DNA from: Jeotgalibacillus malaysiensis
GTDB taxonomy: Bacteria > Bacillota > Bacilli > Bacillales > Jeotgalibacillaceae
NCBI GenBank assembly: GCA_000818095.1
Contig: CP009416.1
Location: 2,774,501-2,838,500 of the forward strand
Direction of reading: 5' to 3'
DNA length: 64,000 nt
Both the position numbers and the translations under genes were made by a program. The notes under the pieces were generated by a model that did no database searches, was not told the DNA's origin, and was given only the letters and a program-made list of their open reading frames with translations. This document shows, one piece after another, positions 39,472-54,529 of this stretch; the first letter of the stretch is position 1; every line of letters begins with the position of its first letter.

Positions 39472-39633
39472 GGTCACACCGCCGGAATTTGCGGTCACCT
39501 TCTGAAAATTTCGGGTCACCTTCAAAATTTTTCAGGTCACATTTTCTCAAAACCTGAATTTTCGGGTCAGGTTCACGAAATTTCCGGTCACCTCGACAGT
39601 TTCTCGGGTCACACCCGCTCAATCTGCGGTCAC
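39472..39633 (+). repeat. 21-bp octad direct-repeat element, array 1
   Basis: GGTCAC (GGTCAG once) begins at 39472, 39493, 39514, 39535, 39565, 39586, 39607 and 39628. The steps are 21, 21, 21, 30, 21, 21 and 21 bp. The consensus unit is GGTCACCTTC, about four variable bases, then AAATTTCG. It lies in the convergent spacer between the HlyD-like and NERD genes. Open frames through it (recurring SGH peptides) arise from the 3-divisible period and are not taken as genes. Confidence 0.9.
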
Positions 39634-39769
39634 CTCCCCCGGCCACCCCACCCAGCCCCTTTTCCCGTCCCCATGATCAGCTGAGGGGGTTTTTAGCCTG
39701 CACTTGGGAAACTCAAAGGGTTTGCTTTGTACTTTCGCTACCTGCGTCAGCACGAACTAACTCAAAAAA

Positions 39770-40726
39770 TTAATCCCTCCTGCGATAATACTTTGTCGCA
39801 CTTCCTGATCCTATGCGCTGCAGGTCCATTTTTCTGAGCAGTCGCTTGACAGATTGAGGAGACGTTGAGATAAAAAGCAGTCTGAATTGCCGATTGGTTA
39901 GTCCCTCTCCCAGGAGAAGAAATACTTCTTCTACAGCGTATTTGTAAATTTTCTGCCCCTGTAATCCACACTCATCACACCACCACTTTACTGATTTACG
40001 CAAAATGTTAAATGATGTACAGTTCGGACAGGTAAATCCCTTTTTCAAGTCGTTGAAAGAGATGCCGAACTTCTTGTACCAGTTGATCATATTTTCTTCG
40101 TGTGCTGACACTAGTTTCTCACCAATTTCTAATGCTTTTTTAACAGATAATTTTTTATTCTGGTATCTGCTCAATAATTGGTGGGCCGTTTTTGGAATGG
40201 CCTGCATCGGGATCGTGTGGAGCAGATCTTCTTTGTTTTCTGCTTTTACGATTGTTTTCAGGTTGCCCATTACTACGTAAGAGACGATTGGTATTTTTAG
40301 GTTGCAATTGTGTTTGAGCCATTTAGACAGTAGTTCCCCCTGCCGCTCTGCCTGGAGCCTGAAGCTTGGGAACCCCTCCTCTAATCCGTTTAAAGTTCTT
40401 AACGTCTGATCATAGTGAGATTTAATTTCGATTGTGCCTTTAATGTATTTCACTTCAAAAGTAATGATCACCTGCGGAAAGATCAGCATTGTGTCTATTT
40501 GAAAATACATGCCTCTATACTTTAGACGCAGGTCGCATATGATCAGTGGTTCCGGTTCGATCAGCGATAAGTAATAATCAGCGCTTTTTTCACCATGGAA
40601 GCCCGCAAGACATTGTCCAAGTTCTTTTTCAACTTCTTGTTTCGAGGGGTGAAAATCAGGTAGGCGGTTTTTGATGGATTGAAGTGTCTGGATGGTTTTT
40701 GGTAGTTTACGTGATTTGAGTATCAT
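39770..40726 (-). CDS. NERD-domain protein with C-terminal zinc-finger
   Basis: About 318 residues from ATG 40726 (MILKSRKLPKTIQ), with AAGGAGAC upstream. A longer frame to 40828 merely translates repeat array 2. Residues 40-150 form a NERD (nuclease-related, PF08378) domain: IICDLRLKYRGMYFQIDTM, then ITFEVKYIKG with the D...ExK pattern of the restriction-endonuclease-like fold. A later CPNC ... CDEC pair (about residues 230-260) is a probable zinc ribbon. The C-terminus resembles a small DNA-binding HTH (SPQSVKRLLRKMDLQRIG). A DNA-processing role is inferred. The gene is bracketed by arrays 1 and 2. Confidence 0.82.
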   Translation of the reverse strand: MILKSRKLPKTIQTLQSIKNRLPDFHPSKQEVEKELGQCLAGFHGEKSADYYLSLIEPEPLIICDLRLKYRGMYFQIDTMLIFPQVIITFEVKYIKGTIEIKSHYDQTLRTLNGLEEGFPSFRLQAERQGELLSKWLKHNCNLKIPIVSYVVMGNLKTIVKAENKEDLLHTIPMQAIPKTAHQLLSRYQNKKLSVKKALEIGEKLVSAHEENMINWYKKFGISFNDLKKGFTCPNCTSFNILRKSVKWWCDECGLQGQKIYKYAVEEVFLLLGEGLTNRQFRLLFISTSPQSVKRLLRKMDLQRIGSGSATKYYRRRD

Positions 40727-40759
40727 GATTAGTCTCCTTTTTATTTGGTGTGTAACTGA

Positions 40760-40921
40760 GGTCACCTTTTGTGAATTTGCGATCACCTCCTTAAGATTTG
40801 CGGTCACCTTTGAAAATTTTAAGGTCACATTTTATAGGATGGGGGATTTTCGGGTCACATCCGGTAATTTTGCGGTCACCTTCACGAAATCACGGGTCAC
40901 CTCCACCAAATTTCCGGTCAC
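40760..40921 (+). repeat. 21-bp octad direct-repeat element, array 2
   Basis: The repeat cores start at 40760, 40781 (GATCAC), 40802, 40823, 40853, 40874, 40895 and 40916. The steps are again 21, 21, 21, 30, 21, 21 and 21 bp. It lies between the divergent NERD and SWIM genes, upstream of both. Unit 4 begins GGTCACATTTT exactly as in array 1. Confidence 0.9.
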
Positions 40922-41022
40922 ATCGCAGCAACAGCAGCTGCAGCAGCACGGCTGCGAAGCCATTTCTATCCCGCGAGAACCCTTCCCAACCCTCCCCCTT
41001 CGTTTTTCACCAAAAGTACGGT

Positions 41023-41028
41023 ATAATT
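41023..41028 (+). promoter_or_regulatory. -10 box upstream of the SWIM/SNF2 operon
   Basis: A perfect TATAAT, 37 bp before the ATG at 41066. The -35 region is weak (TTCGTT at the right distance). It lies about 100 bp downstream of repeat array 2. Confidence 0.45.
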
Positions 41029-41065
41029 AAAGATACGTTTTTTTTCGAAAAGGTGGAGATGGTGA

Positions 41066-42601
41066 ATGCAGACGCAATTGCTGGCAGATGGAATGGAGCG
41101 GCTTGAGCAGCGGATGTTCAGGCAGTTTTCGCCTGCTGATCAGGCTGATGAACGTCTTGTGCAGAAGGGATTGTTTTTATATAGGCAGGGCACGGTGTAT
41201 GAGATGGGGTTTGATGCGAATAATCAGATGCTGAAGGCGAAGGTGCGCGATGTGCATGGTGTGAGCGTGCGTATTTCACTGAATCCGGATAAGGGAAGCA
41301 GCTGCAGCTGTCCTGAGGAGCCGTGGTGCCGCCACCGGATGGCTGTGTTTTTTAAGTTTTATCAGCAGAATGCGAGTGTAAGTCAGTGGATTCAGACGTG
41401 GCGGAGTCAGAAGCAGGATGCCGCAGTGCGTGCGCAAAAATCGCCTGATGCGTGGCGCAGGCTGGCTGAGACGACAGCTGCTTTGATGCCGCTTGAGAAG
41501 CTGCAGGAGGATCCTTACTTGATGGAGCATTACATTTTGGCTGGTTACCGCAAGTTTCAGGAGCAGGCACCGGTTGAGAAGGAATGGACTCCTTTATATA
41601 TGCTGTATGTGTCGTTTTACTATTACAATTACTTGGGTGAAAAGGTGGATCAGGACGCTCCGGATATTATGCGCGGGCTTGAGACGATTATGGAGGCGAT
41701 GCAAAAGGGTGTGTATGACCTGACGGTGTACGCGCATCCGTTTTCGTTTGATCCGTTTTTCAAGGAGCTGAAGGCTGATACGGCAAAGCTGCTTGAGAGA
41801 AAAGATCCGCTCAGCTTTTCAATATACGGCATGATGTGGTTTCAGCTGTTTACAAAACGGCGTGACCGCGAGCTTGAGGCTGAACGCTTGGCTGAGATTG
41901 AGCAATCGGATGAGACGCAGCTGGCACAGACGATTTTTGCGCTGCTTCGAAATGATGATGATTTTGAGGAGCAGTTTGCCAAGTCTTCTGAGCTTGCAGT
42001 GCCTCATGCGGTGCAGTGGCTTGAGTGGCTGCTGAGTGAGGATGAGATTGACCGCTCAGTCAGGGTGCTGAAGGCGATGCAGAAAAAGCTGGACCTTTAT
42101 TTGGCGCGCATGGAAAATCATTCTGACAGACGATCGTTTGCGCTGTGGCTCATTCATAAAATTGAAGGCGAGCAGCTGAGACTGCATGTGCCTGATGTGA
42201 CGATTAAGTTATATGAAAAACTGCTGCCTTACAGTGCGCGTCATTTAGGCGCTGTGATGTTGGATGCGGGGAAGTATAAGGATTGGGTGGAGCTTGTTCA
42301 CTGGATTGACTTCACGCCTGAGGAGCTGGAGGCTGCAGGGTTGAAAAAGCTGATGGAGCGTAAGCCTGAGTTCGCTGCCCCCCTATTGCATCAGTGGGTG
42401 GAGAGTCTGATTCAGAAAAAGCAGCGAGATACGTATAAGAAGGCTGTGCGTTATTTGAAAAAGCTGAAGAAGATCTATCAGGGGTTAAATGAGGAACCCC
42501 GATTTGAATTATATTTAGAGCAGCTGATTGACCGTTACAGAAGGCTGCGTGCGTTCAGAGAAGAGTGTGAGAGGGGGAAATTGATTCATGGAAAAGATTG
42601 A
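41066..42601 (+). CDS. ywqB: SWIM zinc-finger protein (YwqB-like)
   Basis: 511 residues. A SWIM motif lies at about residues 77-93 (CSCPEEPWCRHRMAVFFKFY, the CxCx(n)CxH pattern). The rest is a long helical region (YLARMENHSDRRSFALWLI and similar) ending in basic repeats. SWIM domains bind DNA or protein. The stop overlaps the start of the SNF2 gene by 14 bp, so translation is coupled. In B. subtilis the equivalent pair is ywqB-ywqA; a partnership in chromatin or repair remodelling is inferred. Confidence 0.85.
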   Translation: MQTQLLADGMERLEQRMFRQFSPADQADERLVQKGLFLYRQGTVYEMGFDANNQMLKAKVRDVHGVSVRISLNPDKGSSCSCPEEPWCRHRMAVFFKFYQQNASVSQWIQTWRSQKQDAAVRAQKSPDAWRRLAETTAALMPLEKLQEDPYLMEHYILAGYRKFQEQAPVEKEWTPLYMLYVSFYYYNYLGEKVDQDAPDIMRGLETIMEAMQKGVYDLTVYAHPFSFDPFFKELKADTAKLLERKDPLSFSIYGMMWFQLFTKRRDRELEAERLAEIEQSDETQLAQTIFALLRNDDDFEEQFAKSSELAVPHAVQWLEWLLSEDEIDRSVRVLKAMQKKLDLYLARMENHSDRRSFALWLIHKIEGEQLRLHVPDVTIKLYEKLLPYSARHLGAVMLDAGKYKDWVELVHWIDFTPEELEAAGLKKLMERKPEFAAPLLHQWVESLIQKKQRDTYKKAVRYLKKLKKIYQGLNEEPRFELYLEQLIDRYRRLRAFREECERGKLIHGKD

Positions 42602-45383
42602 TGTGCTGCCGCTTTCTGATGGGTATTTTTCGCTCAGGGTTGTAAATGAAGATGGTGAAATGATTGATCCTGCGCTTTGGCAGTACACGCTGCTTTTATG
42701 GCATAAGGAATCGTTCCATGGTACTTCCCTGCCGAATTTCAGCGGATTACCGTCTGACAGTATCGCGCTTGATAGCTGGTCGGTGCTGACACTGTTTGCG
42801 CAGCCTGAATTCCATGGCCGTGTGAGCTATGAGTTGTCTGAGCAGGCTGACTTTATGTATGATGCCGCTCCCCTTTTATATGAGTGGATCACTGAGGGTA
42901 AGTGGCTTGCTGAGTGGAATCACCAGGCGGATGGTGAGACATTTGAGATGAAGCTTGGGGATGAGTTCTGGAGTGAGTGGGCAGATATGTCTTACAGCGG
43001 TGAGAGGGCGGATGCGGATCAGAAAAAGTTCATGAATGACTGGTATGAGCATGCGATTACGTCGTTTTTCGATCATCATCCGAGGAGTTCGAACCTTGCA
43101 GAGCGTTTATTCAATAAAGGACACGTGCTGACGGCTGAGGATCTGGCTGCTTATTTTGATGAAAAGAAGTGGAAAATGTGGGTTGAGCATAAGGATCTTG
43201 CGCTGCCCTACCGCTTTGGACTTCGTCTTGAGGAGCCTGAATCGGAGGAGCAGCCGTGGCGGATGCAGCCGTTTCTGCGTGACAGCAGGCGCGCTGACTG
43301 GACGTACGACCTGGATTTATCGAAGCCGTTATCCACTTCCCTTCCTAAAAGATGGCTGGATGAAGAGGCTGCCGTTTCCCAGGAGCTTGATCGCTGGGTG
43401 AAGCTGATTCCTTATTTAAAAGAGGACGGCGAGTGGCAGCTTGAAATGGCTGAAGAGCGTGCGTGGCTCTTTTTAACGGAGGGTAGTGAAAAGCTCCTGG
43501 CGCTTGACGTTGAAATTCTGCTTCCTGCCTGGTGGCGTTCAATTCAGAAGTCAAATGTAGCGCTGAAGGCCTCTGTTAAAGGAGATCATAACTACCGCCC
43601 GTCATTTGTCGGGCTTGATTCGCTCGTTGATTACGACTGGAAGATTTCCGTGAACGGCCAGGATTTGTCGGATGACGAATTTCAGTCGTTAGTAGAAGAA
43701 AAGCGCCGCTTCATTCAGTTAAACGGAGAATGGGTGGCGCTTGATCCTGCGATGATTGCGCGTATCCAGCAGGCGATGCAGGCTGCGAAAAAGAATGGGA
43801 TCAGTATGCAGGATCTGCTTGAGGATCATCTAAATGATGAAGAGGATGACAGCGCGGACGACCTGCGGATTCAGTTCGAGCTGAACCGTTCAATGAAATC
43901 AATGATGGAAAAGCTGAATGACACAGGAAAAATCCCGCTTCTTCCCGCTCCTGATACGCTTCAGGGTGAACTGAGACCGTATCAGCAGCAGGGATTCAGC
44001 TGGATGAGTTTTCTGCGTAACAACCGCTTTGGCGCTTGTCTTGCAGATGATATGGGGCTTGGTAAAACGATTCAGCTGATCAGCTACATGCAGCACGTAA
44101 AGCAGACTGAAGCACCTGAGCAACCGTTTTTAATCATCAGTCCAACCTCGGTACTCGGGAACTGGCAGCGTGAGATCGAACGCTTCGCACCAGAGCTAAA
44201 CGTGCAGCTTCATTACGGACCTGTGCGTGCGAAGGGTGAAGATTTTACTGCTTCGATTGCAAATGCAGATGTCGTGCTGACTTCATACGGGCTGTGTCAT
44301 GCGGATCAGGAAGAGCTGTCAGCTGTGCAGTGGGCAGCCGTTGCGCTTGATGAGGCGCAGAATATTAAAAACCCGTTTACCAAACAGTCAAAAGCGATCC
44401 GCAGCCTGAACGGGCAGCATCACCTTGCTCTGACCGGTACACCGATGGAAAACAGACTGTCCGAGCTTTGGGCAATCTTTGATTTTATTAATCACGGCTA
44501 CCTTGGTTCACTTGGTGCATTCAGAAAAGATTTCATCGCCCCGATTGAGCGTGATGGATCTGAAGAGCTTACGTTGAAGTTGCAAAAAAGGATTCGTCCA
44601 TTCTTACTTCGCCGTACAAAAGTAGATCCGGCAGTCGGACTGAACCTGCCATCTAAAATTGAACAGAAAGAATTCTGTCCATTAACGTCTGAACAGGCCT
44701 CCCTTTATGAGCAGCTTGTACAGGATACGCTTGAAAAGATTCCGCAGCTCTCAGGCATTGAGCGAAAAGGAATGGTCCTGCAGATGCTAAACAGGCTGAA
44801 GCAGCTGTGTGACCACCCTGCCCTTTATCTGCAGGAAGAGTCCCCTGCTGACATTGTCGCGCGCTCAGAAAAAATGGATAAGCTGATGGACCTTGTCGAG
44901 CAGATCTTAGAAGCGCGTGAAGGTACGATTATCTTCACGCAGTATATTTCAATGGGCCGCATGATTCAGGACGTGCTTCAGAAGGAATACGGCTTTAAAG
45001 TACCTTTCCTGAACGGTTCTACGCCAAAAGCAACGCGCGATCAGCTGGTTGAACAGTTCCAGGCTGGGGAGTTCCCTGTATTTATTTTAAGTCTGAAAGC
45101 CGGTGGTACAGGACTGACGCTCACTGCAGCGAACCACGTAATTCACTATGACCGCTGGTGGAATCCTGCCGTTGAAAATCAGGCGACGGACCGTGCTTAC
45201 CGGATCGGCCAGACCAGATTTGTGCACGTGCATAAGTTTATTTCTTCGGGAACGATTGAGGAGAAAATTGATAAGATGCTTGAGAAAAAGCAGTCGCTGA
45301 ATGAGGATATTATCCGCGGTGACCAGTGGATTACAGAGCTTTCAAATGAAGAGCTTGAGGATCTGCTTGTATTAAATGCGTGA
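42588..45383 (+). CDS. ywqA: SNF2-family DNA-dependent ATPase/helicase (YwqA-like)
   Basis: 931 residues. The N-terminal 450 residues include a bacterial SNF2_N-associated region. The ATPase core begins at about residue 463: LADDMGLGKTIQ (Walker A), DEAQNIKN (Walker B) and LTGTPMENRLSELW. The C-terminal helicase part has SLKAGGTGLTLTAANHVIHYD and NQATDRAYRIGQ, hallmarks of Swi2/Snf2 enzymes. It translocates on double-stranded DNA and displaces proteins. It overlaps the SWIM gene and is followed by a terminator. Confidence 0.92.
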   Translation: MEKIDVLPLSDGYFSLRVVNEDGEMIDPALWQYTLLLWHKESFHGTSLPNFSGLPSDSIALDSWSVLTLFAQPEFHGRVSYELSEQADFMYDAAPLLYEWITEGKWLAEWNHQADGETFEMKLGDEFWSEWADMSYSGERADADQKKFMNDWYEHAITSFFDHHPRSSNLAERLFNKGHVLTAEDLAAYFDEKKWKMWVEHKDLALPYRFGLRLEEPESEEQPWRMQPFLRDSRRADWTYDLDLSKPLSTSLPKRWLDEEAAVSQELDRWVKLIPYLKEDGEWQLEMAEERAWLFLTEGSEKLLALDVEILLPAWWRSIQKSNVALKASVKGDHNYRPSFVGLDSLVDYDWKISVNGQDLSDDEFQSLVEEKRRFIQLNGEWVALDPAMIARIQQAMQAAKKNGISMQDLLEDHLNDEEDDSADDLRIQFELNRSMKSMMEKLNDTGKIPLLPAPDTLQGELRPYQQQGFSWMSFLRNNRFGACLADDMGLGKTIQLISYMQHVKQTEAPEQPFLIISPTSVLGNWQREIERFAPELNVQLHYGPVRAKGEDFTASIANADVVLTSYGLCHADQEELSAVQWAAVALDEAQNIKNPFTKQSKAIRSLNGQHHLALTGTPMENRLSELWAIFDFINHGYLGSLGAFRKDFIAPIERDGSEELTLKLQKRIRPFLLRRTKVDPAVGLNLPSKIEQKEFCPLTSEQASLYEQLVQDTLEKIPQLSGIERKGMVLQMLNRLKQLCDHPALYLQEESPADIVARSEKMDKLMDLVEQILEAREGTIIFTQYISMGRMIQDVLQKEYGFKVPFLNGSTPKATRDQLVEQFQAGEFPVFILSLKAGGTGLTLTAANHVIHYDRWWNPAVENQATDRAYRIGQTRFVHVHKFISSGTIEEKIDKMLEKKQSLNEDIIRGDQWITELSNEELEDLLVLNA

Positions 45384-45387
45384 AGAA

Positions 45388-45422
45388 AACCGTCTGACGT
45401 TTACGAGTCAGGCGGTTTTTTA
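45388..45422 (+). terminator. Terminator after the SNF2 gene
   Basis: The stem AACCGTCTGAC / GTCAGGCGGTT is followed by T6. Confidence 0.85.
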
Positions 45423-45570
45423 GCGGGGCGAAATGCTTGTATGTATGTGCATTTCATTCAAGAAGGTTCATGCAGAAGCGTTTGAATCCTGCAGCCCCGG
45501 CAATGGGGAAGGTTTGACGGGTGCTGCAGAAATCAGCTGCCTTTTGAAGCGGAGCCACGGCTGGTGTGTT

Positions 45571-45978
45571 CTACTTAATGGTTTCTAAATGAATGTCCGG
45601 GGGTGGAGCGGTGTTTTGCGGAATGGGTTGTTCGAATGGGCCGGGGTCATCTGATCTCCTTTTGCGGTCCATAAATCTGACAGTTTCTACGTACACTTCT
45701 GTCGTGTATTGCCTGATGCCGTCTTCTCTTTCATAAGACCGTGATTGAATGCTGCCGACAATGCCAACGAGTGAGCCTTTTTCGCAGTAGGCTGAGGTAT
45801 TTTGTGCGTTGCGGTTCCAGATCGTACACCTGATAAAATCCGCTTCAAATTCTCCTGCCTGATTTTTAAAGGGCCTGTTTACTGCAAGCGTAATATTCAG
45901 GACCTGTCTGTTACCTGCGATTTCCTTCAGCTCAGGATCCTTCGTTAACCTGCCTACCAATGTGACCTGATTGATCAT
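45571..45978 (-). CDS. ssbB: Single-stranded DNA-binding protein (SsbB/YwpH type)
   Basis: 135 residues from ATG 45978 (MINQVTLVGRLTKDPELK), 6 nt after AGGAGG; the longer frame to 46041 lacks a start signal. The OB-fold core occupies residues 1-105 (LAVNRPFKNQAGEFEADFI, SLVGIVGSIQSRSY). The C-terminal tail is short and lacks the acidic DDDxPF peptide of the replicative SSB. That fits the competence-associated SsbB of B. subtilis, whose gene lies in the same neighbourhood. Confidence 0.85.
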   Translation of the reverse strand: MINQVTLVGRLTKDPELKEIAGNRQVLNITLAVNRPFKNQAGEFEADFIRCTIWNRNAQNTSAYCEKGSLVGIVGSIQSRSYEREDGIRQYTTEVYVETVRFMDRKRRSDDPGPFEQPIPQNTAPPPDIHLETIK

Positions 45979-46180
45979 GTTTAGCCTCCTTTCTTGTGGG
46001 ATGAGTCCATCATAACTGGCGTTTAAATTGTTGTAAAACATAGAAATATTTATTTTAGGGTCGATTTTGAGGATGAAAAGTTCATTTTCTTCTAAGGGGA
46101 AAATAAACTTTTTGCCGACATTATTCCCCGGGAAATGAACTAATGTATTATTTTCAGATTTTTTGTAAAATTTTCTGATG

Positions 46181-46189
46181 TGCTATAAT
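46181..46189 (+). promoter_or_regulatory. Extended -10 promoter of the ywpF-like gene
   Basis: TGC directly followed by TATAAT (46184-46189), about 33 bp before the start codon. The -35 region is a T-rich TTTTGT at 17 bp. Confidence 0.55.
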
Positions 46190-46221
46190 GGGTTTGAAAA
46201 AAGATGAGGAGGATGAGTTGT

Positions 46222-46647
46222 ATGAAGACATTCAAGTTAATGAAGATTCAAATCGCTGAAGAAGAGGCCATACGCAACTTTAACCTTCATGACGGACTGA
46301 TTATTAATAAAGAAGATGAGCACCAGACGTGGATTTTAGAAGCGTTTTTAGATGGGAATGAAACGGAATATTTCCAGCAGTTGCAGCAAAGCGATCAGGA
46401 TATCGAAGTGCTGGCGGTTATCTCAAATGAAAAAAATGATCCGGCAGGACTTTATGCGACTGTGCATGAAGTGAAGCCGATTGGTGATAAGGTGAGCGTA
46501 CTGTTTTCAGCGCATATGAGAAATCAGCGCAATGAGTATGCTGAGGATTTGCTTGCTTACATATTGGATAAGAAAGATATCTCAGGTGATGAGCTGCTGA
46601 CTGAGTTTAGGCAGCAGATGCGGGAGAAGCCGCGGATTAAGAAGTGA
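46222..46647 (+). CDS. ywpF: YwpF-family protein
   Basis: 141 residues from ATG 46222 (MKTFKLMKIQIAEEE); the frame start at 46204 is the ribosome binding site region AGGAGGATG itself. An acidic alpha/beta protein with YFQQLQQSDQDIEVLAVISN and VHEVKPIGDKVSVLFSAHM. It matches what I know of YwpF, a conserved Bacillales protein of unknown function found next to ssb and fabZ. It has no export signal. Confidence 0.75.
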   Translation: MKTFKLMKIQIAEEEAIRNFNLHDGLIINKEDEHQTWILEAFLDGNETEYFQQLQQSDQDIEVLAVISNEKNDPAGLYATVHEVKPIGDKVSVLFSAHMRNQRNEYAEDLLAYILDKKDISGDELLTEFRQQMREKPRIKK

Positions 46648-46676
46648 TGGTTGGGTTTTAGGGGATGGGCGGCTTG

Positions 46677-46838
46677 GGTCAGGTCGGGTGGTTTTCGGGT
46701 CACCTTGGCAAAATTTCGGGTCACGTTCATGTGATTTCGGGTCACCTTTTGATTAATAGTGATTTCTCGGGTCAGGTTCGCGATTTTTCAGGTCACCTTG
46801 ACGAAATCTCGGGTCACGCCCTTCAGGTTTCCGGTCAC
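46677..46838 (+). repeat. 21-bp octad direct-repeat element, array 3
   Basis: The repeat cores start at 46677 (GGTCAG), 46698, 46719, 46740, 46770 (GGTCAG), 46791, 46812 and 46833. The steps are 21, 21, 21, 30, 21, 21 and 21 bp. It lies in the convergent spacer between the ywpF-like gene and a lipoprotein gene. Unit 5 is GGTCAGGTTC, as in array 1, and unit 6 nearly matches unit 6 of array 2. Confidence 0.9.
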
Positions 46839-47577: not shown

Positions 47578-47630
47578 ACAATCTCAGACAAAACGGCGAC
47601 TTCCCCTTGTCGAAAACTTTTATAACCTAA

Positions 47631-47666
47631 AACGAGACTGAGCAATGGCTCAGTCTCGTTTTTCTA
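47631..47666. terminator. Terminator after fabZ
   Basis: The stem AAACGAGACTGAGC / GCTCAGTCTCGTTT is perfect and reaches the stop codon of fabZ. Confidence 0.8.
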
Positions 47667-48086
47667 TTTAATCGCAAACATAATCTCCGTCTCACAAGCA
47701 ACTTCGCCATCTACAGTAGCTGTCGCCTTTCCTTTGCCGATTGGTCCTTTGATGCGGACGATTTCGACTTCCAGGCGGAGCTGGTCTCCCGGCTTAACCT
47801 GGCGCTTGAAACGACAGTTATCGATGCCAGTGAAGAAAGCAAGCTTTCCTTTGTAGTCTTCCTGCTTCAGCATCGCGACTGCGCCGGCTTGGGCGAGTGC
47901 TTCTACGATCAGGACGCCTGGCATAATCGGGTAGTCCGGGAAATGTCCATTGAAAAATTCTTCATTGGCTGTGACGTTTTTCAGTGCCACCGCACGTTTG
48001 CCTTCTTCGATTTCCACTACTTTATCGATTAATAAGAATGGATAGCGGTGGGGAATGATTTCTTTAATCTGCTGAATGTCTAACAT
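47664..48086 (-). CDS. fabZ: (3R)-hydroxyacyl-[acyl-carrier-protein] dehydratase
   Basis: 140 residues, the usual FabZ length. It is a hot-dog fold with the active-site His in [16 protein letters not shown] and Glu in [11 protein letters not shown]. The N-terminal [17 protein letters not shown] is the classical FabZ signature. It removes water from beta-hydroxyacyl-ACP in fatty-acid elongation. It is last in a minus-strand run that includes the flagellar and mbl genes. A good GGAGG-type site precedes the ATG. Confidence 0.95.
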
Positions 48087-48101
48087 CTAAAAAACCTCCT
48101 G

Positions 48102-48356
48102 CTATTCTGTATCCTGTGTGACCAGGTCTAGTATGTGTGTCCATGTTTCAGGTTTTAGTGCATCTGCCGGTGAGCCGTCACCGATGACCCCGTAGCCGAC
48201 CATGAGTCCGACGACCAGGCTGAGACCTGCAAGGAGGATGACTAATAAAACTCTGATCAGAATGGGAAACAGGCGTACCTGTACCCATTTTGGGGATTTG
48301 GATTCTTTTTTTTCAGATGCTGATTTTTGTTTTTGTTCTGCTCGTGTTTCAGACAT
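48102..48356 (-). CDS. EpuA-family small membrane protein (often mislabelled RNA polymerase subunit beta)
   Basis: 84 residues. A basic cytoplasmic tail (EQKQKSASEKKESKSPKW) precedes a single transmembrane segment (VLLVILLAGLSLVVGLMVGYGVIG) and a short outer tail. It matches the DNA-directed RNA polymerase subunit beta/EpuA family (PF11772), a name inherited from an old annotation that says nothing about function. It sits 15 bp from flhP and fabZ, as in other Bacillales. Confidence 0.75.
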   Translation of the reverse strand: MSETRAEQKQKSASEKKESKSPKWVQVRLFPILIRVLLVILLAGLSLVVGLMVGYGVIGDGSPADALKPETWTHILDLVTQDTE

Positions 48357-48371
48357 TTTATGATAACTCCT

Positions 48372-49208
48372 TTAACGCAATCCGTTTACAAGACCGGACA
48401 TCTGGTCAGAGATTGAAACGGCTCTTGAGTGAAATTGGTAATTTCTCTGAACTTCGATCAGTTCTGTGAATGCTTTTGACAAATCGACATTTGACTGCTC
48501 AATGGCGCCCTGTTCGAGACCGATCGTCTGTCTGAGTCCGCCTTCCATTTGAACCAGCAGCTCATCTGCTTCAACGCCAAGTGCTGCGAGGTTGTCAGGA
48601 ATGCCGAGATAGACGCTTGAGACGCGGTCCATCAGCTGTGGACGCTGGATGTCAACGATGCCAAGCTCGACTGTTTGCTGGGCTCCATTTGATTGAACAA
48701 GCAGCGTGCCGTTGTTCTGAAGCTGGATGCTGTCTATTGGTCCATCAAGCATGATCAGTTCATCGTTTTGATTTAAAATGCCGTTCCCCTGGCCGTCTAC
48801 GAGCATGACTTCATCGTCGTTGACAGGTGTGAGATAAAATTCGCCTGCGCGTGTAAAGTTTTGCTCGGAGGTGCCATCGGGTGATTGGACGAGCACTTTA
48901 AAGTATTGATTCTCGGTGTTAAATGCAAAGTCGAGATCACGGTCTGTCCGCTGCAGAGAGCCTTGTGTACCAACCATTTGTGACTGTGAGATTTTAGCAC
49001 CGTTACCGAGTCTCAGACCGTCTGGCGTCATGCGCGGCGCCTGATCTCCACGCTGGTTTTGGACCTGCTGATGAAGCAGTGAATTGAAGTTAGCGGTTGT
49101 CTGCTTGTAGCCGGTTGTTGCTGAGTTGGCGATGTTATTTGAGATCAGATCAAGCTGCTGCTGCAGCTGATTCATTGTATTTGTTGCAGTTACCATATTG
49201 CGGATCAT
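48372..49208 (-). CDS. flhP: Flagellar basal-body rod protein FlhP
   Basis: 278 residues. The N-terminal Flg_bb_rod motif is LDLISNNIANSATTGYKQ, and the C-terminal motif is SNVDLSKAFTELIEVQRNYQFHSRA, both typical of FlgG/FlgF-like axial proteins. It lies 12 bp downstream of flhO. Both are distal rod components exported by the flagellar type III system. Confidence 0.92.
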   Translation of the reverse strand: MIRNMVTATNTMNQLQQQLDLISNNIANSATTGYKQTTANFNSLLHQQVQNQRGDQAPRMTPDGLRLGNGAKISQSQMVGTQGSLQRTDRDLDFAFNTENQYFKVLVQSPDGTSEQNFTRAGEFYLTPVNDDEVMLVDGQGNGILNQNDELIMLDGPIDSIQLQNNGTLLVQSNGAQQTVELGIVDIQRPQLMDRVSSVYLGIPDNLAALGVEADELLVQMEGGLRQTIGLEQGAIEQSNVDLSKAFTELIEVQRNYQFHSRAVSISDQMSGLVNGLR

Positions 49209-49220
49209 ATTTTAGCCCCC

Positions 49221-50060
49221 TTAGTTCAGCCTGCCGACTTCGTTCACTGCTTTTTCCATGCTGCGGTCATATGCCTGAAGTACTTTCTGGTTTGCTTCAA
49301 ATGAGCGATATGATGTCATGAGGTCCGTCATCGTTCTCGCGCTGTCAACATTTGAACGTTCAAGTGAGCCCTGGTTGATTGAAAAGCCTGCTTCAGCAAC
49401 GTTATAGGCATTTCCAAATACGGTGCCTTCAGGTGCTCTGTAAAGTCCGTCGCCTTCTTTGACAAGTGCGCGCGGATCATCTGAATAGGCGATTCCGACT
49501 CTGGCAATGTTTGCGCCGTTCTGGATGACCTGACCGCCATCGGTTACTTCAAACCGGTCGTTTTCAAGCTCGATTCTCGCGCCATTTTCATCGAGTACGT
49601 AATGGCCGGCCGGTGTTGTTAAAAAGCCGTCAGCGTCCAGCGCGAAGTTGCCGTTTCGCGTGTAGCGGTCCGTGCCGTCTTCGTTTTCAAGGGTAAAAAA
49701 GAGTGCGCCTAGAATTCCTGTTTCCTCGTTGGCAGGGAGGTCTCCCTGGAGGATGGCAAGGTCTGTTGTAAGTCCTGTTTCACGCAGGTCTCCCTGTGTA
49801 AATAACGGGACTGCTTCCTGCATGTATACACCTGTGTTCAAGCCGCCGACTGGTGTCATTCTAGTGGATGACATGCCGTTTTGTGTCGGAACTTTAGAGC
49901 CTCCAAGACTTGAAAGCAGCATCTCAGGAAATGCTCTCATTGAAGCCTGATCCGCCTTGAAGCCAGGTGTATTGACGTTGGACATATTATTTGTCAGCAT
50001 TTCGGTTTTTCTCTGCTGCGCAAGCATTCCGGTTGCAACTGTGTAAAAGCCTCTGAACAT
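49221..50060 (-). CDS. flhO: Flagellar basal-body rod protein FlhO
   Basis: 279 residues from ATG 50060 (MFRGFYTVATGML), 7 nt after GAGGTG; the GTG at 50069 belongs to the ribosome binding site. The N-terminus has TNNMSNVNTPGFKADQ and the C-terminus SNVDSARTMTDLMTSYRSFEANQ, the rod-protein signatures. It forms an operon with flhP directly behind mbl, as in B. subtilis. Confidence 0.92.
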   Translation of the reverse strand: MFRGFYTVATGMLAQQRKTEMLTNNMSNVNTPGFKADQASMRAFPEMLLSSLGGSKVPTQNGMSSTRMTPVGGLNTGVYMQEAVPLFTQGDLRETGLTTDLAILQGDLPANEETGILGALFFTLENEDGTDRYTRNGNFALDADGFLTTPAGHYVLDENGARIELENDRFEVTDGGQVIQNGANIARVGIAYSDDPRALVKEGDGLYRAPEGTVFGNAYNVAEAGFSINQGSLERSNVDSARTMTDLMTSYRSFEANQKVLQAYDRSMEKAVNEVGRLN

Positions 50061-50093
50061 TGTTTTCACCTCATCATTTTTTACCCGTGACTT

Positions 50094-50102
50094 ATTATAA
50101 CA
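50094..50102 (-). promoter_or_regulatory. Extended -10 box before flhO
   Basis: TGTTATAAT on the minus strand, 34 bp before the ATG. No good -35 box and no sigma-D motif were found. Confidence 0.4.
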
Positions 50103-50131
50103 AGTTTCTGCATTTGACGGAGGAATTTTCA

Positions 50132-50172
50132 GGAGATTCCTTCTTTCGGCATTGTCAGAAGGAATCTCCTAA
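50132..50172 (-). terminator. Hairpin after mbl
   Basis: The perfect 14-bp stem AGGAGATTCCTTCT / AGAAGGAATCTCCT begins 7 bp after the mbl stop. It has only a weak U-run, so it may be a partial terminator or an mRNA end-protecting hairpin. Confidence 0.55.
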
Positions 50173-50178
50173 AGTCCA

Positions 50179-51180
50179 TTATCCCAGTTTTCGCTGAGGA
50201 ATTTTATCAATATTTTCAAGCATGACGCCTGTTCCGACTGCGACACAGTCCATCGGGTTTTCAGCGACGAATACAGGTACTTTCAGCTCTTCAGCAAGCA
50301 GCTGGTCGATACCATGAAGCAGCGCGCCGCCACCTGTTAAGATTACGCCGCGGTCAATGATGTCCGCTGACAGCTCAGGCGGTGTCTTTTCAAGGACGTT
50401 TTTCGCAGCCTGAACAATGACTGCCACTGATTCACGAAGTGCTTTTTCCACTTCTGCAGATTTAATCGTAATAGTACGTGGCAGACCGCTGACCATATCA
50501 CGGCCGCGAATTTCCATTTCCTCATCACGTGAATCCGGGAATACAGTCGCAATGCTGAGCTTAATCGCTTCTGCTGTACGCTCACCGATCAGCAGCTTGT
50601 ATTCTTTTTTCACGTAGTTTAAAATGTCTGCGTCAAACTGGTCACCGGCCATTTTGATCGACTGGGATGTCACGATATCTCCCATTGAAAGGACGGCTAC
50701 ATCTGTTGTACCGCCGCCGATATCCACAACCATGTTACCGCTCGGCTGGAAAATATCCATACCTGCGCCGATTGCTGCAACTTTTGGCTCCTCTTCAAGG
50801 AAAATGCGCTTGCCGCCGCTCTTTTCAGCTGCTTCACGGATCGCCTTTTGCTCAACGCTTGTGATATTCGTCGGGCAGCAGATCAGAATGCGCGGCTTAG
50901 ACATTAATCCTTTTAGGCTAAGCTTGTTGATAAAGTGCTTCAGCATCGCTTCTGTTACGTCAAAATCAGCGATGACACCGTCTTTTAACGGACGGATCGC
51001 TACAATATTACCCGGCGTTCTGCCGACCATGTTGCGCGCTTCTTCACCCACTGCAAGTACGCGGTTTGTATTTTTATCTATGGCAACGACAGACGGCTCA
51101 TTCAGGACAATTCCTTTACCTTTTACATGGATCAGCAGATTTGCTGTTCCGAGGTCAATTCCAATATCTTTTGAAAACAT
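50179..51180 (-). CDS. mbl: MreB-like rod-shape protein Mbl
   Basis: 333 residues, the usual Mbl length. Actin-fold motifs include DLGTANLLIHVKGKGIV (phosphate 1), VDIGGGTTDVAVLS (phosphate 2) and GGGALLHGIDQLL (adenosine). It is an actin-like ATPase that forms membrane-bound filaments guiding the cell-wall elongation machinery. The position behind spoIIID and before flhO matches B. subtilis and separates it from MreB and MreBH. Confidence 0.95.
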   Translation of the reverse strand: MFSKDIGIDLGTANLLIHVKGKGIVLNEPSVVAIDKNTNRVLAVGEEARNMVGRTPGNIVAIRPLKDGVIADFDVTEAMLKHFINKLSLKGLMSKPRILICCPTNITSVEQKAIREAAEKSGGKRIFLEEEPKVAAIGAGMDIFQPSGNMVVDIGGGTTDVAVLSMGDIVTSQSIKMAGDQFDADILNYVKKEYKLLIGERTAEAIKLSIATVFPDSRDEEMEIRGRDMVSGLPRTITIKSAEVEKALRESVAVIVQAAKNVLEKTPPELSADIIDRGVILTGGGALLHGIDQLLAEELKVPVFVAENPMDCVAVGTGVMLENIDKIPQRKLG

Positions 51181-51232
51181 GATTCTGTAAGACTCCCTTC
51201 AGTCACTGGTTATTGTAGTAGGACGGTTTGTG

Positions 51233-51294
51233 AGCGAAGGCCGGGGTCAGACCCTTGCCTTCGTGAAGGGCAGGGTCTGACCCCGGCCTTCGCT
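51233..51294. repeat. Perfect 23-bp inverted repeat with GGGGTCAGACCCT core
   Basis: Arms 51233-51255 and 51272-51294 are exact inverted copies, and the 16-nt centre extends the pairing further. It lies in the 333-bp gap between mbl and spoIIID. It would form a very stable hairpin in both strands. There is no U-tract, so it is not an ordinary terminator. Confidence 0.8.
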
Positions 51295-51394
51295 GTCCTT
51301 CATCATTATGTATGGAATCTGCCTTGTTATACGCATATTATATCGGTTATATTTTATGATTTTATAGATAGTCTATGGTATTGGTTGGTGGTAC

Positions 51395-51423
51395 TGAAGG
51401 CAGGGGTCTGACCCCCTGCTTCA
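51395..51423. repeat. Second GGGGTCTGACCCC palindrome in the same spacer
   Basis: TGAAGGCAGGGGTC / GACCCCCTGCTTCA is nearly palindromic around TCTGA and shares its core with the repeat at 51233. A similar fragment (TTTGGGGTCTGTCCC) occurs near 32270. Confidence 0.65.
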
Positions 51424-51464
51424 AAGAAAGCATAGTCCAATAAGTATATATTACCACAACTAAA

Positions 51465-51516
51465 AGAGGAGGTCATGAACCAAACAAACGTTTGATTCAC
51501 GGCCTCCTCTTTTTCA
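51465..51516 (-). terminator. Terminator after spoIIID
   Basis: A long stem GAGGAGGCCGTGAATCAAAC / GTTTGGTTCATGACCTCCTC (two mismatches) with U-runs. Confidence 0.8.
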
Positions 51517-51777
51517 GTTGGATAAGGGCTGCTGCTTTTCGTATTTGGCTTTGGTGGCTTCTCCGCCCCTTAAGTGTCTGATGGCTTTATGATAATGAAG
51601 GATTGTTGTTACTTCGTCTGCGAGCGCAGGATCCAGTTTGGGCAGGCGCTCGGTTAAGCTTTTGTGCACTGTGCTTTTAGATACGCCAAAAATTTTTACG
51701 CTTGAGCGGACCGTTTCTTCTGTCTCAACGATATGCCTGCCAGCCGAGATTGTTCTCTCTCTGATATACTCATGCAC
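51514..51777 (-). CDS. spoIIID: Sporulation transcription factor SpoIIID
   Basis: 87 residues. Helix-turn-helix VRSSVKIFGVSKSTVHKSL, followed by the conserved tail HYHKAIRHLRGGEATKAKYEK, gives a sure identification. The GTG start (MHEYIRERT) follows AGGAGG. It is a mother-cell regulator acting with sigma-E, switching genes toward the sigma-K stage. A sigma-E-like promoter lies upstream. Confidence 0.95.
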   Translation of the reverse strand: MHEYIRERTISAGRHIVETEETVRSSVKIFGVSKSTVHKSLTERLPKLDPALADEVTTILHYHKAIRHLRGGEATKAKYEKQQPLSN

Positions 51778-51807
51778 GGTGCCGGCCTCCTGTGGGTCCG
51801 TTTGTGC

Positions 51808-51836
51808 AGTATATGCTGACAGGCGGTTAAGATATA
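51808..51836 (-). promoter_or_regulatory. Sigma-E-type promoter of spoIIID
   Basis: The minus strand reads ATATC, 15 bp, CATATACT (51815-51808), matching seven of eight positions of the sigma-E -10 consensus CATACAMT. spoIIID is known to be sigma-E dependent in B. subtilis. The same octamer occurs before spoIID. Confidence 0.6.
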
Positions 51837-51840
51837 CCTA

Positions 51841-52521
51841 TTATTGCGTAATTGACATCGGGTCGATTGCCTGACCGTCTTTTAACACTTCAAAGTGGAC
51901 GTGAAGTCCTGCTTCGGGGTTCAATTCACTGACACCGGACTGCGCAATGACCTGTCCCTGTCTGACTTCCTCACCTTCAGAAACCGTGATATCCTCGATT
52001 GCCTGATAGCGTGTGACATAGCCGTCATGCTCGATTTCCACTGCATTTCCGATAAAAGGATCCTCTTCAACCAGTGTCACCGTACCGCTCATGGCAGCTG
52101 TGACTTCAAACGGCTCACCATCCTGCACCAGGTCAACACCAAGGTTCGGATAGTACGTTTGATTAACAACAATTAGTGCTTCCTGCTGTTCACTGGCGTC
52201 TGCTGTCTGGTCGTAAAAGGCTTTGTGAACAGATACTGCATTCGGATCTGTCACCGGCAGGCTCATTGCTTCAGCCGGCTGATTGACTTCTGCTGTTTCC
52301 GATGGACCGTAAGTATAGTCGTTGGCTTCTTCCTGATAAACGTACTGACTTTCTGTTGACTCCTGTGCGACTTCTGAATCGTTTTGTCCCTGTACGAAAA
52401 ATACAGTTCCAACCGCGAGCGCTGCACACCCAAGGTAAATTGCAGGTACCGCCCAGCGTTTTTTGAAAAACTTTTTAAAGCTGTCTGACAGGGTAGATTG
52501 ATTTTTGTCTCCCTTAATCAT
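51841..52521 (-). CDS. spoIIQ: Stage II sporulation protein Q, LytM-like
   Basis: About 226 residues from ATG 52521 (MIKGDKNQSTLSDSF); GAGGTG lies 7 nt upstream, and the frame start at 52542 overlaps the predicted promoter. One transmembrane segment (AVPAIYLGCAALAVGTVFF) precedes a LytM/M23 domain at about residues 120-225. The first zinc-ligand His of active LytM enzymes (HxGxD) is replaced here (PNLGVDL has Asn), while HVHFEV is kept. Loss of that His is also known in B. subtilis SpoIIQ, so the protein is probably structural: the forespore half of the SpoIIQ-SpoIIIAH channel. Confidence 0.9.
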   Translation of the reverse strand: MIKGDKNQSTLSDSFKKFFKKRWAVPAIYLGCAALAVGTVFFVQGQNDSEVAQESTESQYVYQEEANDYTYGPSETAEVNQPAEAMSLPVTDPNAVSVHKAFYDQTADASEQQEALIVVNQTYYPNLGVDLVQDGEPFEVTAAMSGTVTLVEEDPFIGNAVEIEHDGYVTRYQAIEDITVSEGEEVRQGQVIAQSGVSELNPEAGLHVHFEVLKDGQAIDPMSITQ

Positions 52522-52539
52522 TTTCATCACCTCAGCACT

Positions 52540-52569
52540 CATTTTGAACGCTTAGAGGAAATTCTATAC
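52540..52569 (-). promoter_or_regulatory. Sigma-F-type promoter of spoIIQ
   Basis: The minus strand has GTATA (52569-52565), 15 bp, then GTTCAAAATG (52549-52540), close to the sigma-F consensus GYATA-N15-GGnnAnAnTW with one mismatch. spoIIQ is sigma-F controlled in B. subtilis. Confidence 0.65.
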
Positions 52570-52647
52570 ATTGTCACAATTTTTTTCTTTAGAGCCGCAT
52601 GTAGCATGATACAATCCCAAATAGTACGAGTGAAAGGATTCTGATAC

Positions 52648-53082
52648 ATGATCAAATGGCTTAAACTGTTTATCACCGCACTGCCTTTTCTATACATGAT
52701 CCTGATCTGGGTGCTATCAAGTTTACCTCACGATGCAGTCATTGAGCTGCCATCCGGGTCATTTGACCGTTTTCTAAAAGAGTCTCTCCATTTAATCGAA
52801 TTTGGCATCCTTCATTTCTTATTTATCGCGGCGCTGCTTGTCCACGGAAAGCTGAACGTCGCTACACATACCCTTGCCGCTGTGTTTGCGTCGTTTTACG
52901 GCTTTGTAGATGAAATACACCAGGCATTCGTGCCGTACCGCTCAGCGACGATTATAGACGCTGTAAAAGATATCATCGGCGTAGTCGTCGTCTATCTCCT
53001 CATCCAACGCTTCTATTTTGTTAAAAAGGACAGCTTTTTAAGAAATTGGTTTGTGCGTGTTGAAGGATATTTTCAGAGGTGA
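52648..53082 (+). CDS. VanZ-like family membrane protein
   Basis: 144 residues with four transmembrane segments (ITALPFLYMILIWVLSSL, GILHFLFIAALLV, LAAVFASFYGFVDEIHQAF, IIGVVVVYLLIQRF). The motif DEIHQAFVPYRSATIIDAVKD is the conserved core of VanZ-like proteins. Its role is unknown; VanZ itself gives low teicoplanin resistance. AAAGGA precedes the ATG. It is convergent with spoIID. Confidence 0.85.
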   Translation: MIKWLKLFITALPFLYMILIWVLSSLPHDAVIELPSGSFDRFLKESLHLIEFGILHFLFIAALLVHGKLNVATHTLAAVFASFYGFVDEIHQAFVPYRSATIIDAVKDIIGVVVVYLLIQRFYFVKKDSFLRNWFVRVEGYFQR

Positions 53083-53101
53083 GGTTGACGCCAATGGGCA
53101 G

Positions 53102-53213
53102 CTGAGCGTCGTATGTTCCTCGCTGACGTAGGTGTTGCGGCTGGTGAGTGCGCGATACACCCGGGTTGAGTGCTGTATATGCACGATCGACAGCTGTATA
53201 TGCACAACTGAAC
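53102..53213 (+). repeat. Weak 21-bp-periodic tract
   Basis: TGA-containing cores recur at 53103, 53124, 53145, 53167, 53188 (CGA) and 53209, that is steps of 21, 21, 22, 21 and 21 bp. The last units share GCTGTATATGCAC at exactly 21 bp. This may be a degenerate third variant of the octad element. Confidence 0.5.
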
Positions 53214-53215
53214 GC

Positions 53216-53259
53216 TTAAAAAGCAGCATTCCGCCGCGTCCGGAATGCTGCTTTTTCAT
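53216..53259 (-). terminator. Terminator after spoIID
   Basis: The stem AAAAAGCAGCATTCCG / CGGAATGCTGCTTTTT is perfect and overlaps the stop codon; U-runs on both sides. Confidence 0.85.
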
Positions 53260-54197
53260 CTTTTTGCGAGCAGCGCTGGGACTGCGTCACCAATTGACGT
53301 AATCTCAACCCCGCTGAAATAATAATGCACAATGTCTTCATAGCTGCTGCCGGAAAGTGCCATCCCGTTTGCCCCGTACTGACTCATCCCGACCCCGTGC
53401 CCAAACCCCTTGGTCTTAATCACAACCTCATCCCCCTCCAGCACCCACTCAAAATCAGTCGAACGCAGATCAAGCGTCTCACGGATCTCTCTCCCGCTGA
53501 ACGTTTTTCCTGCAATTTCAACCGTTTTAATCCGGTTCCCGGGCGTCCGCTCCAGAATACTCCCCTGCTCATCGGCTGTCAGACTGATCCCAAGCTTCAT
53601 CTCAAACTCAGCGACCGGCATTCTTTTTTCATGGTAAAAGCCGGGGGCTGCCTGTTCATCCCATTTACTCTCTACGGACGCTAAATAGGGAACGTCCTCT
53701 TCCCAGTAATCCTTTGCATTTTCCGTCCAGCCGTTACTCGTTGAAAAGAACGCTGCTGTGATCGGCTGTCCTTCATATGTCAAAATCTCTCCTTTAGTCT
53801 CCTGCACCGCTTCATCAATCGCAGCTTTCTTCCATGTATAATCATCTTTCCATATCTCTTTTAACTCAGCTTCATTTTTAAATACCTGATGGGTCGTTGT
53901 ATCCGTGATCGGCTCCCCTTTGCTGTGCGTGAGAAATTTCGTCACATACGTTCTTGCCGCAAGCGCCTGCGCTTTCAACGCCTCCTTCTCAAAAGAAGCC
54001 GGCATCTCACTCGCAACCACCCCCGCCACATACGACTCCAGGTCCACCGTCTCAACCTCACCACGCGCCTGCCTCATCACCGGCACCGCAAGCCCCGTAT
54101 CCGTCTCCTCCACCTGCTCAGCAGGCACTTCCTCCTCAGGCAAAGGTGTCCTCTGCTCCTCATTCGGACTCACAATCAACGCCGGAATCGCAAGCAA
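53256..54197 (-). CDS. spoIID: Stage II sporulation protein D, with apparent frameshift in its N-terminal anchor
   Basis: The open frame has 313 codons. Its SpoIID domain includes VAGVVASEMPASFEKEALKAQALAARTYV and the C-terminal GHGVGMSQYGANGMALSGSSYEDI. SpoIID is a mother-cell lytic transglycosylase of the SpoIIDMP engulfment complex. The frame begins at a TTG inside the expected membrane anchor. The true start appears to be ATG 54234, in a different frame. Removing one base from the seven-T run (plus-strand A7, 54216-54222) joins them to give MKLLFFIGYFVLLLAIPALI, a normal signal anchor. Either a sequencing indel or a real disruption/slippage site. Confidence 0.88.
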   Translation of the reverse strand: MLAIPALIVSPNEEQRTPLPEEEVPAEQVEETDTGLAVPVMRQARGEVETVDLESYVAGVVASEMPASFEKEALKAQALAARTYVTKFLTHSKGEPITDTTTHQVFKNEAELKEIWKDDYTWKKAAIDEAVQETKGEILTYEGQPITAAFFSTSNGWTENAKDYWEEDVPYLASVESKWDEQAAPGFYHEKRMPVAEFEMKLGISLTADEQGSILERTPGNRIKTVEIAGKTFSGREIRETLDLRSTDFEWVLEGDEVVIKTKGFGHGVGMSQYGANGMALSGSSYEDIVHYYFSGVEITSIGDAVPALLAKR

Positions 54198-54276
54198 AAG
54201 TACAAAATATCCTATAAAAAAATAACAACTTCATCCGCTGCTGTATCCTCACCCCTCCAAACATCGGTTATGGGGA

Positions 54277-54305
54277 AGTATATGCTTAGCGCGACGGAGA
54301 TAGAC
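54277..54305 (-). promoter_or_regulatory. Sigma-E-type promoter of spoIID
   Basis: The minus strand has GTCTATC, 14 bp, CATATACT (54284-54277), the same -10 octamer as spoIIID. Transcription would begin near 54270, about 36 bp before ATG 54234. spoIID is sigma-E dependent in B. subtilis. Confidence 0.6.
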
Positions 54306-54367
54306 TTGTTTCTGAAGAGATGGGGTTTCTTAAGGGCATGAAGAGGGTTTGGGGGTTGGACTTTTGA

Positions 54368-54529
54368 GGTCAGGTCAGAAGAATTTCAGGTCACACTCCT
54401 GATTTCTTAGGTCACATTAAGTAATTTTCAGGTCATGTTTTCTTGCAAACTGGATTTTCGAGTCACCGCACTCATTTTTGGGGTCACATTATAAATTTTT
54501 CGGATCACATTCCACAAATCTTCGATCAC
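54368..54529 (+). repeat. 21-bp octad direct-repeat element, array 4
   Basis: The cores start at 54368 (GGTCAG), 54389, 54410, 54431 (GGTCAT), 54461 (AGTCAC), 54482, 54503 (GATCAC) and 54524 (GATCAC). The steps are 21, 21, 21, 30, 21, 21 and 21 bp. This is the most diverged of the GGTCAC arrays, yet the spacing is unchanged. It fills the middle of the 447-bp gap between spoIID and murA. Confidence 0.85.

Follow-up and report, generated by a model that had tools for sequence, protein, structure and literature searches.

Phased GGTCAC arrays of Jeotgalibacillus malaysiensis as the probable dispersed partner of a NERD nuclease gene

A 64,000-nucleotide stretch of the genome of Jeotgalibacillus malaysiensis (contig CP009416.1, positions 2,774,501 to 2,838,500; hereafter the window, numbered from its first letter) holds four copies of a 162-bp array, in which eight GGTCAC-like cores are arranged in two sets of four. 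The question raised by this locus is what such arrays serve, and which protein, if any, reads them. The evidence gathered here suggests that they probably make up the dispersed cis component of a system that pairs a gene with a repeat; the trans component would be a NERD nuclease that carries a zinc ribbon and has a winged-helix-like C-terminus, encoded between the first two arrays. The features concerned are the following:

39472..39633, + strand: 4+4 GGTCAC array 1, between the gene at 38087-39364 and the NERD gene; 1 mismatch to GGTCAC over the 48 core positions
39770..40726, - strand: NERD nuclease gene (318 amino acids; PF08378), between arrays 1 and 2
40760..40921, + strand: 4+4 GGTCAC array 2, directly upstream of the NERD gene start and before the gene at 41066; 1 mismatch over 48
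46677..46838, + strand: 4+4 GGTCAC array 3; 2 mismatches over 48
54368..54529, + strand: 4+4 GGTCAC array 4, between spoIID-like and murA-like genes (named by eye); 5 mismatches over 48

The four arrays, first described in an earlier note on this DNA, are confirmed in position and strand, with cores at offsets 0, 21, 42, 63, 93, 114, 135 and 156 (steps of 21, 21, 21, 30, 21, 21 and 21 bp). In five 64-kb sequences simulated with a Markov model, the best-fitting site of each carried 22-24 mismatches. Identity among the window copies is 88-98% in the cores and 46-60% outside them, in agreement with the note's view that the spacing is kept while the spacers diverge; the spacing, however, meets exceptions at several of the 29 places where arrays occur in this genome. 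Those places, all on contig C1, combine the results of a blast search with one array as query (26 places, none on contig C2) and the matches to GGTCAC-N15-GGTCAC with at most one mismatch, which number 157 versus 17 for the reversed control, with none on C2 among the 100 of the 157 matches listed. A genome scan for GGTCAC at the eight offsets, proposed by the note as a check, found the exact 4+4 layout at 24 of the 29 places with at most nine mismatches (looser rows were dropped from the counts), and free variation of the spacing was not seen. In these 24 arrays, 124 of the 192 cores read exactly GGTCAC. The exceptions comprise a 31-bp gap in two cases, one extra base in two, and two or three places where the array is broken or shifted, so that the spacing is strongly kept, but not absolute.

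The unit consensus in the arrays of this genome is GGTCACcTtC...aAaTTTCg, with the A/T tract preceding the core. The AAATTT tracts noticed earlier between the cores are part of the unit in this species, but they are no general rule, since the units of G005 and of G004 and G009 differ (G001 to G011 denote members of the same genus, G011 being Jeotgalibacillus alimentarius). All four window arrays lie outside likely genes, as had been proposed. For array 2, this assumes that the NERD gene starts at the ATG at 40726, which has a ribosome-binding-like stretch before it; its longest open reading frame (ORF) starts at a GTG at 40828 and would overlap the array. None of the reading frames stays open through every copy in this genome (the best one does so in 11 of 24), and coding is therefore not the cause of the arrays.

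The gene enclosed by arrays 1 and 2 encodes a member of the NERD family (PF08378, 4.8e-13, 50 bits against a curated cut-off of 22.1). The earlier note did not make the link to this gene, nor did it recognize the lineage-specific versions of the core described below. The protein consists of a PD-(D/E)XK-type nuclease part (residues ~1-152), a CxxC...CxxC zinc ribbon (~230-255) and a winged-helix-like C-terminus (~257-317). In an alignment of 57 NERD proteins, E46, D78, K93, Q125 and the four cysteines are invariant and E91 is conserved in at least 90%, an active-site pattern that, including E91-x-K93, fits PD-(D/E)XK nucleases. Comparison of an AlphaFold2 model (predicted local distance difference test 94.3, predicted template modelling score 0.87) by Foldseek gave Can2 as the best match (E 1.3e-3, probability 0.99), followed by R2 retrotransposon proteins, Bax1 and McrBC, as well as the winged-helix repressor PagR over 61 columns (probability 0.92, E 0.25), a match that would correspond to the C-terminal part. 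Judged by its active-site residues and modelled fold, the protein is a putative nuclease of the PD-(D/E)XK type. No NCBIfam family scored above its cut-off for the four proteins searched. The NERD profile (E <=1e-12) matched 44 of 61 genomes, with up to 10 matches per genome: two to six in each of the eight array-bearing members of the genus, one in G002, and none in G001, G003 and G010.

The association of NERD genes with phased arrays extends well beyond the window. In J. malaysiensis, G007, G004 and G005, arrays of the local core lie on both sides of the NERD gene, and no array was found where examined in G001, G003 and G010, which have no NERD match. Within the genus, searched as whole genomes with two core patterns, dispersed arrays seem to track the NERD gene except in G009 and G002. 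Bacillales NERD loci, 30 with 1.5-kb and 40 with 4-kb flanks (70 entries, 65 distinct), were further scanned without regard to the core for any 20- or 21-bp five-unit array with a score of at least 15. Such arrays were present in 52 of the 140 500-bp windows adjoining a NERD gene, versus 7 of the 310 windows lying 1.5-4 kb off in the 40 longer loci, some of these seven being further real arrays or acidic coding repeats. Of the 65 distinct loci, 37 (40 of the 70 entries) had an array no more than 500 bp from the gene on one side or both, and 11 (12 entries) on both sides, counts that are on the low side because the five-unit score misses some 4+4 arrays. In shuffled 1.5-kb flanks, the score of 15 was reached in none of 180 trials. 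A set of 20 further NERD loci (19 distinct) included 11 with an array within ~600 bp. A period scan at a low threshold proved too noisy at four units and was not used.

The cores at these loci vary by gene lineage, whereas the 20/21-bp period is constant. GGTCAC, TTCTACA and GTGGTCAAATAAC are among them, and ACTTGGGCGG, GTTCGGTAATAAA and TTTGGACTGTAA were found at further NERD loci. Paired arrays around a NERD gene are either direct or inverted relative to each other. A second array family of J. malaysiensis, with a TTCTTAGAA-like core, is situated around a second NERD paralogue (L340:3826, 5079 and 7437, corresponding to C1 ~505-509 kb), one array lying ~2.4 kb away.

In two cases of allelic switching, the flanking core has changed along with the orthologous gene, with the register remaining constant. 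In the first one, the syntenic NERD orthologues of G004 (L342) and G009 (L349) lie between flanks that are 96% and 88% identical, and share 93% identity in the nuclease part and 63% in the C-terminal part; the array core reads GTTGT[TC]AAATAAC in the former and GTGGT[TC]RAATMAC in the latter. In the pair L343/L351, the core is kept and the C-terminus is 83% identical. The second case is the window locus itself, where the alleles of J. malaysiensis and G007 are 68% identical and both carry GGTCAC arrays, and those of G011 and G006, 41% identical to the J. malaysiensis protein, are accompanied by TATCACC- and nTCACC-type arrays of the same 21/30 layout (computed for both sides in G006 and one side in G011; the other G011 side and G008 were judged by eye). 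Elsewhere in G011 and G006, the arrays read GGTCAC. At the same locus in G008, the neighbours are 85-96% identical to those of J. malaysiensis, but the NERD protein only 41%. A NERD locus of G004 has kept its flanks in G009 (82% and 85.5%), with the arrays-NERD-arrays segment replaced by ~0.33 kb that holds, by eye, two arrays of a TTCTGCACAC-like core.

The distribution of the arrays follows lineages as well. A three-unit GGTCAC pattern is present in J. malaysiensis, G004, G006, G007, G008, G009 and G011, with none in G001, G002, G003, G005 and G010; outside the genus, it matched 9 of 49 genomes, mostly with one to three matches, although G048 reached 11 and G015 eight. The 4+4 pattern occurs in 7 of 397 genomes of the order, five of them from this genus, and the printed letters of the other two resemble simple or coding repeats. 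A contig scan for the array returned six stretches, one from J. alimentarius. In G005, the core is TGTAGAA (reverse TTCTACA), with 93 three-unit matches versus 5 for the control, and 16 loci read there hold 18 six-unit arrays at 21 bp and 6 five-unit ones (24 in total), while the arrays of G004 and G009 consist mostly of five or six GG[TA]CAC units at 21 bp without a gap. The layout varies by lineage—4+4 with a 30-bp gap, or five or six ungapped units—which the earlier note did not recognize.

As for array positions, 14 of the 22 arrays fetched from G006, G007, G008 and G011 lie in the same gene interval as a J. malaysiensis array, and 15 of the 22 have a flanking orthologue no farther than 1.5 kb away. 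Inheritance of all eight units as one block, suggested earlier, is supported in close relatives. Among 48 sites fetched from G004, G005 and G009, one is bracketed by both orthologues of a J. malaysiensis site and 10 are near; G004 and G009 have many array sites in common. Same-core arrays are largely inherited in place, and arrays with other cores seem to have spread independently; a general sharing of array positions between species with different cores was considered and dropped on account of the single bracketed site. In orthologous array pairs, such as L139/L100, cores tend to be kept and spacers can, by eye, diverge beyond the flanking DNA. The interval of array 3 holds a GGTCAC 4+4 array also in J. 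alimentarius, and the corresponding region of G005 a TGTAGAA array pair beside one extra gene.

The association, the switches, the unchanging register and the lineage-specific cores are most simply explained if the NERD protein binds the arrays, with its C-terminal half on the core. The arrays would then be multi-protomer binding sites of the cognate nuclease, in which one protein copy binds each core and the 20/21-bp register, equivalent to two helical turns, brings six to eight copies onto one DNA face; a multi-protein DNA scaffold, close to the protein-scaffold site guessed at in the earlier note, remains a likely use. The nuclease parts may nick or cut the DNA held in this assembly, and repair would copy the array to further intergenic sites, or from one of them to another, and keep the copies similar. 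The arrays next to the gene may have a regulatory effect on it as well. After spreading, arrays would pass on vertically, and upon a change in the DNA-reading half of the gene, a new core would spread while the old arrays stay as orphans. Spreading of the arrays by the NERD protein is suggested by their dispersal, their lineage-specific copy sets, the similar pair of J. malaysiensis copies at 639473 and 726517, whose upstream flanks match too, and the likeness to REP/RAYT systems.

In the available part of the description of these systems (RAYT, REP-associated tyrosine transposase; PMC2817692), copies of the repeat border the gene they belong to and are also dispersed in intergenic DNA; the gene evolves faster than its neighbours and changes together with the repeat, and repeat abundance follows the gene. 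The NERD loci resemble REP/RAYT, as described there, in their dispersed intergenic copies, the fast evolution of the gene and the joint change of gene and repeat; bordering of the gene by its cognate repeat applies to 37 of the 65 distinct loci, and the tracking of the gene by dispersed copies to the genus apart from G009 and G002. Contrary to them, however, the gene product is no HUH/Y1 transposase but a NERD nuclease of the PD-(D/E)XK type, in which a zinc ribbon and a winged-helix-like part are also present, and the arrays consist of direct, one-way, helically phased cores rather than palindromes.

The balance tips slightly towards a broader proposal: Bacillales nucleases of the NERD-zinc-ribbon-winged-helix type would constitute, together with their phased 20/21-bp arrays, an undescribed class of self-spreading gene-plus-repeat systems, in which the register would be set by protein assembly on one DNA face, the core re-specified via the C-terminal half, and several independent families could be held by one genome. 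In line with the earlier note, which knew of none, no described family of such arrays was found in the open-access literature, nor was any description of NERD-linked repeats, subscription journals being mostly outside the search; the accessible parts of papers naming the NERD domain mention no repeat association. A common, little-studied nuclease type thereby gains a candidate DNA target, and the system points to a bacterial route of repeat spreading without a transposase. In addition, the natural series of cores on one register represents a ready set for how the C-terminal half reads DNA.

Several results weigh against this interpretation. No array at the threshold was present on either side of 28 of the 65 distinct NERD loci, and the sole NERD match of G002 has no array within 4 kb. 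G009 retains GGWCAC arrays, although this core borders none of its four NERD genes. G048 holds GGGCAC/GGTCAC arrays without an adjoining NERD gene, its NERD gene on contig C9 being flanked by TTTCGCGCAC, and the prediction made for this genome failed. Over all pairs that 34 arrays can form (561), the similarity of the cores is only weakly related to C-terminal identity (rank correlation 0.01), with a Mantel r of 0.16 for the C-terminal part (7 of 2000 permutations) and 0.22 for the nuclease part (1 of 2000), and this weak link is carried by close orthologues. No Foldseek match of the protein lies at or below 1e-3, and no insertion showing clean ends or a target duplication was observed.

An unlikely alternative is that the arrays are chromosome-organising sites of the host, comparable to nucleoid-occlusion or macrodomain sites, with the NERD locus being one carrier among many. 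Such a role would agree with the ~29 copies outside likely genes, with the cores kept and positions inherited in close relatives, and with the distribution of the copies, none of which falls within C1:1243300-2267600, a ~1-Mb segment presumed to hold the terminus (C1 starts at a dnaA-like gene), or has been seen on the 603-kb contig C2, despite its valS-like gene and four flagellin-like genes. However, both gaps were noticed post hoc, several paralogous NERD genes per genome have other cores beside them, array-less congeners exist as far as G001, G003 and G010 were examined, and only the one site in 48 from G004, G005 and G009 is bracketed as in J. malaysiensis.

Slightly less likely still is a defence or self-marking role, in which the nuclease attacks array-less DNA, or is held inactive on the arrays and released on infection. 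The conserved active-site pattern, the fast evolution with allele turnover at a fixed locus and the many NERD paralogues speak for it. On the other hand, no PADLOC model matches the two proteins searched, and no defence genes were recognized by eye among the ORFs at 36-58 kb of the window.

The ends of IS21- or Tn7-like elements carry multiple phased transposase sites, and the arrays, being dispersed and phased, resemble them. An origin as the ends of a classical transposon, or as miniature copies of such an element, is nevertheless very improbable, because all units of one array point the same way and the own genome has no IS21-type C-terminal domain (PF22483; Tn7-type transposases were not searched for), its two IS21 hits being far below the NF033546 cut-off. 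Moreover, IS21 copies in the array-free G003 and one in G011 have no five-unit array (score 10) adjacent, and IS21-like ends were accordingly rejected.

A transcribed RNA element or short coding repeat has next to no probability: the steps of 21 and 30 bp can each be divided by three, ORFs cross the arrays in several cases, and three or four elements of the own genome fold at z below -3, but frames are open in at most 11 of 24 own and 11 of 18 G005 arrays (which discards coding heptads), mean folding z is about -1.4 and -1.5, alike on both strands, no Rfam match exists in the window, and left and right flanks show no specific pairing, which did not exceed that of flanks swapped between arrays (mean rank 0.46 and 0.49), leading to the rejection of a structured RNA.

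Plasmid iterons and par-type centromeres are built of direct repeats about two helical turns apart, with one protein per unit. The arrays are similar in their spacing, but differ in having tens of chromosomal copies and a nuclease as the linked gene. The earlier view that they do not fit iteron or centromere arrays agrees with the neighbouring ORFs, among which no rep or par gene was recognized by eye. A plasmid or phage origin was also rejected, as a search with array 1 matched no plasmid and brought up nothing but short, weak matches (E 0.04), in eight records of Sulfolobus viruses. Two scans of IMG/VR returned 48 and 33 stretches, of which the 48 were read; all of these were set aside as tandem or coding-like repeats (by spacer identity and stops) except for L223:1061-2230, a non-coding 21-bp GGACAC array with diverged spacers. 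It begins where a 338-aa ORF ends, one that has no significant family match, and is possibly an iteron array.

The TAACTGA repeats of Beggiatoaceae are, like the arrays, dispersed intergenic sets of short direct repeats (PMC4679880). According to the part of that study available, the same heptamer occurs in distant phyla, mostly near start codons, and is thought to act in translation; unlike here, that part identifies no cognate gene.

The arrays also lie in DNA of biased composition, as seen around array 1:

39397..39471, + strand: G/T-rich left flank of array 1; GC skew is also positive upstream of the other three window arrays
39634..39708, + strand: C-rich right flank of array 1; GC skew is also negative downstream of the other three window arrays

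Over 60 bp, GC skew is positive upstream of 23 and negative downstream of all 24 of the J. malaysiensis arrays, regardless of strand, and it fades beyond ~75 bp. The shift in composition continues within the array, where from the first to the last spacer G falls from 0.24 to 0.09 and C rises from 0.21 to 0.34, not strictly monotonically. The sign is the same in G005, G007 and G011, and partly so in G004, G009, G006 and G008. As a speculation, the skew could stem from 3'-ending strands that are exposed time after time where the array is cut. Flank-to-flank matches are downstream-downstream in 52 of 53 cases in J. malaysiensis, and upstream-upstream in 51 of 69 in G009. A dispersed REP-like element (..CGGAGCTG..) occurs in array-bearing intergenic regions (L070 ~9180-9366, corresponding to C1 ~88.2-88.4 kb), and is present in the downstream flanks of 9 of the 24 arrays.

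Other observations concern single loci. In G004, arrays are tandemly repeated with periods of ~150-230 bp around and near a NERD gene (L133; G004:C22:57437-57869 and 64158-66445), and G005 holds array doublets that resemble them. In G048, which belongs to another family of the order, the GGGCAC/GGTCAC 21-bp arrays are located at L359:5512-5840 and in L107, with no NERD gene found adjacent. Finally, array units are not palindromes of the type bound by Noc, TTTCCCGGGAAA, and Noc sites were rejected as an explanation: this palindrome has 11 exact sites in the J. malaysiensis genome, one of which falls inside an array by coincidence. That copy, which is perfect, is found at C1:88024-88035, inside a unit of array 87998 between ftsH and coaX, and has been kept in place in G004 and G009, which lack an array there, and in G008, where the array is degenerate.

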